In this document: positions 20,533 through 22,982 of the stretch, piece by piece
Layout: each line of letters starts with the position of its first letter
Position numbering within the stretch: position 1 is the first letter of the stretch
IMG/VR virus record: IMGVR_UViG_3300036985_000870
Span: 1 to 23,656 of that record
Length of the DNA stretch: 23,656 nucleotides
Reading direction: 5' to 3' (one strand)
DNA from: a virus
Notes under the pieces: generated by a model
The model's input: the letters and a program-made list of their open reading frames with translations, nothing else
What the model was told of the DNA's origin: nothing
Database searches by the model: none
Position numbers and translations under genes: made by a program

Positions 20533-21684
20533 ATGAAAGAACTAGTATTAGATGTAGAAACAACAATCTCTAACAAGGGTAATCCTTTTGATCAGACTAA
20601 CAAACTATGTTATGTGGGGATAAGTAGTGGGCTGTACGATATAGAATACTCACACGATCCCTATGTACCTAAGCTTCAAGAGATTCAACAAAAGATTGAT
20701 GAGTCTGATATTTTAATTGGGTTTAATATTAAATTTGATTTGCATTGGATAAGACGATATGGAATTACTTTTAGCAATAAGCGTATTTGGGATTGCCAAC
20801 TGGTACACTTTATACTTACTGGACAAACCGAATCGTATCCTTCCCTTAATGGGGTCGCTGCTCATTATGGTCTGGGTACTAAGCTTGATGTGGTTAGCTC
20901 AGAGTATTGGAAAAATGGTATAGATACACCTGACATACCTAGAGATACCCTTGAAGAGTACTTGCAGGGTGACCTAGACTTAACACACCAAGTCTATCTC
21001 AAACAGCTAGAAGAAGTTAATGCTAGTAGCTTACAACTACAGCGACTAATCAGTTTACACAATCAAGATCTCCTAGTCCTTCAAGACATGGAGTTTAACG
21101 GTTTACTTTACAACGCAACAAAGAGTGAGGAATTAGCAAATGAATTGGATGCACAAATCGTCGAGCTTGATAACGAGTTGTATCAGTACCATAACTGTGA
21201 TCGTTTTAATCCCAATAGTGGTGAGCATCTCAGTTCTTTACTTTATGGGGGAAGCATCAAGCTTTCTCGCAAAGTACCTGCTGGAGTTTACAAGACAGGT
21301 GCTCGCAAAGGTGAGGCAAAAGAAAAGTGGGAAGACTATGTAGTAGACTTGCCTAGACTCTTTACTCCTCCTAGAGGTTCAGAGTTAGCTAAAGAAGGTT
21401 ACTTCTCTACTGATGAGGCTACACTCAAGTCCCTTAAGAGTAGGAACCAACACTCTCTCAAAGCCATACAGACACTACTCACTAGGTCTGACTTAGAGAA
21501 GAGAGTATCAACGTACTACAGAGGCTTACTCAAGTTAGCAGCTGAACTTAACTGGAAGGAGAACAAGATACATGGACAACTTAATCAATGCGTCGCTCGT
21601 ACAGGACGTCTGTCAAGTAGTAAACCAAACCTGCAAAACTTCGACGGAGGAATCAAAGGTCTCTTCTATTCTAGATTTACTTGA
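20533..21684 (+). CDS. family A DNA polymerase, N-terminal part (split gene)
   Basis: A 383-residue piece of a T7-like DNA polymerase. The 3'-5' exonuclease motifs are complete: LDVET (Asp 7, Glu 9), GFNIKFD (Asp 69) and YLQGDLD (Tyr 143, Asp 147). The polymerase part begins at about residue 180 and includes VARTGRLSSSKPNLQN near 353-368, the end of the thumb/palm entry. The frame then stops at TGA (21682-21684), just after GLFYSRFT, where an intact polymerase would continue into motif A. An HNH gene follows. This product could retain proofreading-type exonuclease activity but lacks motifs A, B and C. The start lies directly after the helicase stop. Confidence 0.85.
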   Translation: MKELVLDVETTISNKGNPFDQTNKLCYVGISSGLYDIEYSHDPYVPKLQEIQQKIDESDILIGFNIKFDLHWIRRYGITFSNKRIWDCQLVHFILTGQTESYPSLNGVAAHYGLGTKLDVVSSEYWKNGIDTPDIPRDTLEEYLQGDLDLTHQVYLKQLEEVNASSLQLQRLISLHNQDLLVLQDMEFNGLLYNATKSEELANELDAQIVELDNELYQYHNCDRFNPNSGEHLSSLLYGGSIKLSRKVPAGVYKTGARKGEAKEKWEDYVVDLPRLFTPPRGSELAKEGYFSTDEATLKSLKSRNQHSLKAIQTLLTRSDLEKRVSTYYRGLLKLAAELNWKENKIHGQLNQCVARTGRLSSSKPNLQNFDGGIKGLFYSRFT

Positions 21685-22262
21685 TGCTTACGAGAAAGAT
21701 GTGTACCTTGAACGCTTATGGGAGGACTTATACTAGATGCTACTACAAGCAGAAAGTACTTGACTAGAATGGAATCTTATGGTATACTAATAGTATAACA
21801 ATAGGAGAATCCCATGAAACCTTATGATCCAGTAAAAAGAAGAGAAGAATATCTAAAAAATTATGATAAATATAAAGAGCAAAGAAAAACCTATGCAGAA
21901 AACAATAAAGACTCTAAAAATAAAGGAGCCTTAGAGTATTATTATAAAAAGAAAGTTGAAGACCCAGTGAGATACTTACTAAAGTATGCAAAGTTAAGAG
22001 CAAAACAAAAAGGAATAGAATTCTCTTTAGTTAAAGAAGATATAATTATTCCAAAGTTATGCCCTTACTTACAAGTACCACTAACAATAGCAGGTGATAG
22101 AAAACATTCACCATCAATAGATAGAATTGACCCTTCATTAGGTTATAGTAAAGGTAATATAGAAATTATATCTACTTTAGCGAACTCAATGAAGTGGAAC
22201 TCCACGAAAGAAGAGTTAATTCAATTCTCTAAATCAGTTCTTTTAAAGGAGGGTATATTGTA
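21685..22262 (+). mobile_element. HNH-endonuclease insert splitting the DNA polymerase gene
   Basis: About 580 bases separate FYSRFT of the first polymerase half from LLQADAKQL of the second. The insert holds a promoter and an HNH homing-type endonuclease gene, and the 5' end carries a partial copy of the LLQA coding sequence (21737-21753 matches 22263-22279 at 14 of 17 bases). I see no group I (P, Q, R, S) or group II domain V sequence, and the HNH stop abuts the second half, so there is little room for a splicing core after it. A free-standing homing gene insertion fits better than an intron. Edges are approximate. Confidence 0.65.
21760..21788 (+). promoter_or_regulatory. promoter for the HNH gene
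   Basis: TTGACT (21760-21765), 17-base spacer, TGG then TATACT (21783-21788), followed 25 bases later by the HNH start with AGGAG. It gives the insert its own expression, independent of the polymerase operon. Confidence 0.65.
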
Positions 22263-22263
22263 A
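21814..22263 (+). CDS. HNH homing-type endonuclease
   Basis: A 149-residue protein. A basic, Tyr/Lys-rich N-terminus (about 1-75) is followed by CPYLQVPLTI near 88-97. The HNH core is SPSIDRIDPSLGYSKGNIEI near 103-122, continuing STLANSMK to about 130. The Asp-Arg-Ile-Asp, GY.KGN and late Asn match the phage HNH pattern of metal-binding and catalytic residues. Such enzymes make a break in an allele lacking the insert and spread by repair. Its codons are richer in AAA and ATA than the neighbours, suggesting recent arrival. AGGAG precedes the ATG by about seven bases. Its TAA overlaps the ATG that begins the second polymerase half. Confidence 0.85.
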   Translation: MKPYDPVKRREEYLKNYDKYKEQRKTYAENNKDSKNKGALEYYYKKKVEDPVRYLLKYAKLRAKQKGIEFSLVKEDIIIPKLCPYLQVPLTIAGDRKHSPSIDRIDPSLGYSKGNIEIISTLANSMKWNSTKEELIQFSKSVLLKEGIL

Positions 22264-22982
22264 TGTTACTCCAAGCGGATGCAAAACAACTGTAACTGGA
22301 GTGGGTAGGAGCCACATACTTAAGTCAAGATCAGACAGCTATCGAAGAGATTCTTAATGGGGTAGACCAGCATGCAGACAACCAACAAAGATTTGGACTA
22401 CCAAGTCGACTTATTGCTAAAACGTTCGTGTTTCGACTCATCTACGGAGGATCAGCGTACTCTTATGCGAATGATCCTAACTTCTCAAGTATTGGAGATG
22501 AAACGTTCTGGCAAGGAGTCATCGATCAGTTCTACGCAAAGTACAGTGGACTAAAGGTATGGCATGAGCAGTTACTAGAACGAGCTATGCGTGATGGTCG
22601 TATCGAGATGCCTACTGGTAGAGTCTACAAGTTTGAACCTGAGGTTAAGTATGGTAAGGTTAAGTTCCCTCGTACTAAGATCTTAAACTATCCTGTACAG
22701 GGCTTAGGTGCAGACCTTATGGCACTAGCTAGGGTCTCACTTCGTAACAGATTAAAAGATAAAGAAGGAGTCTTTATGGTCAACACAGTACATGACTCAA
22801 TAATACTTGACTTTGATCCTAAAGTATGGGATAATATTAGTCTAGTGCAGTTAGTTACAAACTGTTTTAACGATGTACCACTTAACTTTAAAAAGATATT
22901 TGGTTCGGAGTTCAATCTACCTATGAGGGTTCAGTGTGAAGTTGGACCTGACTGGGGCAACATGGAGGAAGTTAATGCTTAG
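22263..22982 (+). CDS. family A DNA polymerase, C-terminal part with in-frame stop
   Basis: Codes for the palm and fingers of the split polymerase. ATG 22263, with AAAGGAGGG nine bases before, begins MLLQADAKQL, which holds the motif A Asp. An in-frame TAA at 22293-22295 then interrupts it, and the frame continues as LEWVGATYLSQDQTAIEEIL. After that come SRLIAKTFVFRLIYGGS (motif B region), ILNYPVQGLGADLMALARV and VNTVHDSIILD (motif C). Compared with the expected DAKQLEW, the sequence has six extra bases (TAACTG or CTGTAA). The longest stop-free start is a GTG at 22428, but it has no ribosome site and would cut into motif B. Unless the stop is bypassed, no polypeptide carries all three motifs. 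Confidence 0.75.
22807..22835 (+). promoter_or_regulatory. possible promoter ahead of the small SSB-tail gene
   Basis: TTGACT (22807-22812), 17-base spacer, TGG then GATAAT (22830-22835), inside the polymerase gene and 140 bases before the next start. The extended TGG and five of six -10 bases fit the promoter pattern seen elsewhere in the window. Confidence 0.4.

Follow-up and report, generated by a model that had tools for sequence, protein, structure and literature searches.

A small break in DNA polymerase motif A accompanies an HNH endonuclease element in phages and may be skipped by the ribosome

Introduction

How can a DNA polymerase be made when a stop codon separates the catalytic aspartate of its motif A from the conserved glutamate? 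The question arises in a stretch of viral DNA of 23,656 nucleotides, the whole of which is called the window here (IMG/VR record IMGVR_UViG_3300036985_000870). On direct translation, motif A of its family A polymerase contains CTG TAA CTG GAG TGG at positions 22290-22304, and the TAA at 22293-22295 lies in the zero frame between the Asp and the Glu, which are consequently not in one open frame. A sequence-only reading of the locus had described one polymerase split by an HNH insert, and had held that a functional enzyme would require readthrough, RNA removal or another enzyme. Comparison with relatives that lack the insert, which that reading had proposed, and with others that carry it gives a different picture of how the locus arose and of what its expression may entail.

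Results

The two halves do belong to one family A polymerase: both exceed the cut-off of PF00476, and the first half (the N-half) also matches phrog_9556/phrog_17. The N-half was correctly said to end after FYSRFT. Its C-terminus reads GLFYSRFT and is followed by TGA, and it is 90-93% identical in close relatives, where it has the same end. The second half (the C-half) starts with an ATG at 22263 after AAAGGAGGG, encodes MLLQADAKQL and then meets the TAA, so the described ribosome site, peptide and stop are all present; past the stop the frame continues as LEWVGATYL (reading LEWVGATYLSQD...) and is open to 22982. Aligned with Taq polymerase, the D..E, K..YG and HD motifs are all in place. Since motif A aligns with LDYSQIELR of Taq, DAKQLEW contains the catalytic Asp as its D and the conserved Glu as its E, and the catalytic residue does lie on a peptide of ten amino acids. 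The six extra bases at the scar are likewise real. They are missing from all element-free relatives, and 11 of 13 distinct close relatives read CAA TTA GAG TGG at this position. The spacing from Asp to Glu equals that of DYSQIE in Taq only when the extra bases are left untranslated; judged from the sequence, a single open frame would contain both residues only if the ribosome skipped six bases.

Table 1. Features of the polymerase locus in the window
Feature	Position	Strand	Description
Polymerase N-half gene	20533..21684	+	3'-5' exonuclease and start of polymerase domain; ends LFYSRFT-TGA
Spacer	21683..21736	+	+1-frame peptide DAYEKDVYLERLWEDLY-TAG; ancestral inter-gene stretch
Native remnant of C-half start	21720..21753	+	GGGAGGA, then ATG CTA CTA CAA GCA GA, cut by the element
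Promoter-like sequence at element 5' end	21760..21788	+	TTGACT-17-TATACT; 10/12 consensus matches, TG before the -10 box
HNH endonuclease gene	21814..22263	+	149 aa; TAA overlaps next ATG (TAATG)
Element-borne recoded C-half start	22245..22292	+	AAAGGAGGG, ATG, then LLQADAKQL in other codons
Scar, presumed stop-hop site	22290..22298	+	Take-off CTG, stop TAA, landing CTG; resume codon GAG at 22299
Polymerase C-half body	22296..22982	+	Motifs B (RLIAKTFVFRLIYGG) and C (TVHDS) intact; PF00476 match

Contrary to what had been supposed, the division into two halves does not stem from the HNH insert. The same two polymerase genes are present in about 140 relatives where the HNH gene is absent, among them close IMG/VR relatives, and in the isolated phages MEP401 and MEP402; the closest group has 82 nt between the end of the N-half and LEW, and other relatives have 22-306 nt. 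The authors of the MEP401 study noted split polymerases in most of its group and suggested an intron (PMC10580990). The polymerase is thus ancestrally two genes across MEP401-type phages. The spacer between the genes encodes a conserved peptide: in the +1 frame, 10 of the 15 variable sites among 12 distinct sequences are third positions, and the peptide, which follows the N-half stop, is conserved as DAYEKD(V/I)Y(L/I)ER(L/Q)WEDLY. Either a small overlapping gene or an N-half tail reached by frameshifting may be encoded here. The spacer frame has its own ATG start in the group of L026 and L039, and in the group of L042 and L057-L086 the two polymerase genes overlap, with the C-half ATG in the +1 frame inside the last N-half codons, where a +1 shift would fuse them.

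The HNH gene does lie between the halves, as described, but its position is more exact than that: it sits inside the first codons of the C-half and brings a recoded replacement for them. The native ATG CTA CTA CAA GCA GA occupies 21737-21753, and the insert starts right after it; in element-free relatives this native remnant runs directly into DAKQLEW. The element thereby cuts into the beginning of the second gene and brings a new ribosome-binding site, an ATG and MLLQADAKQL in synonymous codons. Its HNH gene matches phrog_3322 (endonuclease, E=3e-30) and phrog_3118 (HNH endonuclease, E=3e-12), with no Pfam model above its cut-off, and related genes occupy this site in 12 further distinct contexts. 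Boxes equivalent to the TTGAC and TATA boxes of the window are also readable in the elements of L016, L025, L147, L037 and L228. As in a mobile element, the site is occupied in some phages and empty in close relatives, occupied in L016 and empty in L008, occupied in L147 and empty in L393-L397. When native remnant and element copy are compared in 11 elements, 28 of 50 codons are different and 26 of these 28 changes are synonymous, where 22% would be expected from random single-base changes; the element copy has therefore been maintained at the protein level. A donor phage, and not selection that followed the insertion, may be the source of some of the changes, and the peptide is preserved either way. 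Two other readings of the element were set aside. A duplicated motif A at 21737-21771, taken as a second scar, is accounted for in its TGACTAGAATGG part by the promoter-like boxes, and an intein does not fit an HNH gene that has its own start and stop between flanks closed by stops.

Removal of the element as an intron, or its precise excision from RNA or DNA, would restore the gene, and RNA removal was among the solutions first proposed. HNH genes frequently ride in group I introns, including introns of phage polymerase genes, the MEP401 authors suggested an intron (PMC10580990), and Roseobacter phage CRP-7 has the same HNH family inside a group I intron. We nevertheless consider this explanation improbable. 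No Rfam intron model matched the window or seven other carriers at gathering or relaxed thresholds, while CRP-7, the positive control, was detected at 1e-18. The native 5' remnant ends before the AKQ codons, so joining the native flanks cannot give DAKQLEW, and a product that uses the element copy keeps the extra 2-8 bases; splicing tried junction by junction restored DAKQLEW in no case. The CRP-7 intron (L444, 2589-2799; Rfam E=1e-18), which contains the related HNH gene, interrupts a ribonucleotide reductase that is annotated as two genes.

The break at motif A is a rule of the element and not an accident of one contig, a recurrence that could not be seen from the one sequence. Of the C-half contexts compared, 156 are distinct. 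The 143 that lack the element at this site all keep the frame, reading DAK(Q/A/G)-LEW, and the 13 that have it are all broken at motif A, none of them in phase (Fisher p ~1e-14 even with the nine junction forms counted as nine events, a nominal value, the carriers being related). The nine forms fall into the classes +2, +4, +6 with a stop, +8 and -1 (Table 2). A stop is present in all three +6 junctions (TAA, TAG, TAG) and a sense insertion in none, and a zero-frame stop stands directly after DAKxL in five of the nine forms. The carriers reach far across the family, the C-halves of the five most distant being 40-53% identical to the queries used. L231 (L036) provides an internal control: a related HNH gene is located at the end of the N-half instead, and motif A is intact. 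Positions 2947-3625 of L231 hold this HNH gene and, after it, a second copy of the final 28 N-half codons that has no start codon. A degenerate search with GATGCNAARCARN{4,16}GARTGGGT returned only the known carriers and no additional ones. Mycobacterium phage jiawei was dismissed as a carrier, its HNH gene simply following an intact polymerase.

Table 2. Junction forms between the element copy and the native C-half
Carrier	Junction	Class	Occurrence
Window	CTG TAA CTG GAG	+6	Seen only in the window contig
L319	CTT TAG CTC GAA	+6	
L316	CTT TAG CCC GAA	+6	
L016, L017, L025, L088	CTT T CTT GAG	+4	Four metagenomes
L315	CTT C CTT GAA	+4	
L147	CTG TAG AG	+2	
L314	CTT TAG AA	+2	
L318	CAA ATATG CAG CTT GAA	+8	
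L037, L228, L040	GCA AAG C..	-1	Three contigs

These counts bear on whether the break is an artefact of sequencing or assembly. The exact +6 form of the window occurs in a single contig, as an artefact might, but the +4 break recurs in four metagenomes and the -1 break in three, always linked to the element. The phenomenon is therefore no assembly error of one contig, and we regard an artefact as extremely improbable.

Selection is still acting on the downstream gene. In all 13 element-bearing contexts the C-half body is intact, and carrier C-halves are all open to the normal end. Pairs involving carriers have dN/dS values of 0.03-0.22, within or near the 0.05-0.19 of element-free pairs. C-half flanks recombine between phages, so part of this purifying selection may predate the arrival of the element. 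The junction form turns over, as its nine forms attest, while brokenness persists, and the -1 break is common to L037 and L228 despite HNH regions that are only about 86% identical. Positions 6290-6450 of L040 hold a relic element in which the HNH gene is reduced to its last codons, while the recoded start, the -1 junction and an intact C-half are kept; an apparent open frame of 720 aa on this contig was disregarded, since it conflicts with the stops in direct translation.

The main rival to a translational explanation is that the C-half is inactive or nearly so, damaged by a selfish nuclease, with the phages surviving on the host polymerase, on leaky expression at a very low level or by mixed infection. 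Zero-frame translation would yield only a short peptide in every carrier, and recent homing into fresh backgrounds would hide decay (L016 differs from the element-free L008 at about ten C-half sites). Set against this, every C-half is intact, that of the HNH-less relic in L040 included, no in-frame decay or deletion was seen, and the peptide of the element copy is maintained by synonymous changes. Nor would loss of an essential gene explain why the breaks are limited to a few bases. A spare polymerase also fits poorly: a second family A or B polymerase (PF00476, PF00136) was found on none of the contigs L016 (37.6 kb), L228 (41.9 kb) and L040 (50.8 kb). We judge loss of function unlikely, but more probable than the other rivals.

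Discussion

The pattern of a broken frame in 13 of 13 contexts with the element and in none of 143 without it suggests that ribosomes probably skip the flaw. The best explanation, to which we give about an even chance of being right, is that an HNH cassette was inserted, that indels in motif A destroyed its target, and that a ribosomal hop or slip restores DAKQLEW. In this scheme a mobile HNH cassette has entered the initial codons of the second gene in a polymerase that was naturally encoded by two genes, and supplies a probable promoter, the nuclease and a recoded start (ribosome-binding site, ATG and LLQADAKQL), so that the second gene is almost rebuilt. At the junction between the copy and the native LEW, every carrier has a small indel by which the frame is broken or a stop is gained. 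We infer that the nuclease targets the DNA of motif A, whose conserved code makes it a natural site for homing. Since the target would reappear once the start was rebuilt, a carrier would have to alter the DNA without altering the protein, and synonymous recoding and untranslated indels would be the only ways left. Indel and recoding together would then make the carrier immune, and with no room in motif A for an added residue, an indel would survive only where the ribosome is able to skip it.

In every carrier LLQADAK(x)L would have to run straight on into (L)EW, without any extra residue. The window has the layout of a textbook stop-hop, in which peptidyl-tRNA-Leu would leave CUG at the UAA and land on the next CUG (+6), giving exactly DAKQLEW. 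L319 would make a similar +6 hop with CUU and CUC, L016 and L315 a +4 hop from CUU to CUU, and L318 a hop over 8 nt from Gln CAA to CAG. The -1 form of L037, L228 and L040 could slip by -1 at A_AAG, a known tetranucleotide for -1 shifts, and in L314 the CUU would re-pair on UUA. A stop after the take-off codon combined with a matching landing codon is found in the window and in L319; L316 (CTT to CCC) and L147 (CTG to GTA) lack a good landing codon, which counts against the explanation. A conserved stimulatory RNA structure at the junction was not supported, the hairpin of the window (z = -1.5) not being shared. The landing Leu codons of the window and L016 (CTG and CTT) equal the take-off codon, while nearly all close element-free relatives have TTA; this could reflect selection for hopping or donor sequence that was carried along.

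That expression needs some special event, as the sequence-only reading maintained, stands, and plain readthrough of the stop is a poor candidate for that event. For the UAA of the window readthrough would be simple, and the CUU U of the +4 form resembles the +1 shift of RF2, which we count in favour of ordinary +1 frameshifting. One or two extra residues would then enter motif A; in the window two would fall between the Asp and Glu of motif A, a distance that is identical in Taq and the aligned relatives, and the +2, +4, +6, +8 and -1 forms would not be unified. We think this reading quite improbable. The window contains no tRNA or suppressor gene. A polymerase of three parts, in which a C-half that starts further downstream assembles with the decapeptide MLLQADAKQL and its catalytic Asp, is very improbable. 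The enzyme already works in two parts and the decapeptide has a good ribosome-binding site and an overlap of its ATG with the HNH stop, but the carriers share no start after the break: none is near in the window or in L319, and ATG-QNNF occurs in the +4 form only. It is also improbable that a central strand of the palm would be supplied in trans.

Rather more tentatively than for the hop or slip itself, with the chances somewhat against it, we propose that widespread phage HNH elements immunise their carriers through an indel in a catalytic motif that the ribosome skips, and that CUG-UAA-CUG in the window is the first in-frame stop-hop from nature. Split polymerases, HNH genes beside split genes, the bypass of gene 60, synthetic stop-hops and gene parts that are carried along are individually known; in the open-licence papers searched we found neither their combination nor the rule that this element scars a catalytic motif out of phase. 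Almost the only natural example of translational bypassing of the bacterial type has long been T4 gene 60. The phages described here offer at least nine small coding gaps that differ from one another, all at a single conserved position in an essential enzyme, each linked to a nuclease and each exact in length. If the proposal is right, it offers a general route from mobile endonucleases to recoding and a set of natural stop-hop sites, and it accounts for the broken polymerases that gene finders report. If it is wrong, the persistence of phages with a disrupted catalytic motif in every carrier needs explaining.

One system close to the locus is the split DNA polymerase of the OM43 phages of MEP401 type, which is the same polymerase in the same two-gene layout (PMC10580990), without the HNH element and without the break in motif A. 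Endonuclease genes also lie beside two-part replication enzymes that work in pieces in nrdA/mobE of Aeh1 and gene 43A/43B of Aeromonas phage 25 (PMC2988022); no scar that requires recoding has been described there. Many short inserts in coding genes are skipped by ribosomes in the byp elements of Magnusiomyces capitatus (PMC5009743), which are mitochondrial and are not linked to the target of one endonuclease. Synthetic stop-hops in E. coli resemble CTG-TAA-CTG in having matched codons around a stop, with 9 nt decoded as one amino acid (PMC5009743), but these are laboratory constructs, and a natural in-frame stop-hop was not known to a 2016 review (PMC5009743). The fungal mitochondrial mORF hybrids (atp6 of Allomyces; atp6, atp9, cox2 and nad3 of Glomus) likewise have an element that carries a diverged, mostly synonymous version of the gene part that it displaces (PMC3630166); there the 3' end is supplied, in phase, whereas the phage element supplies the 5' end and is in phase in 0 of 13 cases. 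T4 gene 60 with MobA offers a further parallel. An HNH endonuclease splits an essential replication gene, and a coding gap nearby, with a stop after the take-off codon and a matched landing site, is thought to protect against the nuclease (PMC5009743, PMC2988022), the 50-nt gap being thought protective against MobA itself (PMC5009743). That gap, however, is 50 nt long, is located away from mobA and needs a nascent peptide and a hairpin, whereas the phage element described here has its gap of 2-8 nt, or its -1 break, at its own 3' junction, in an active-site motif and in many forms.
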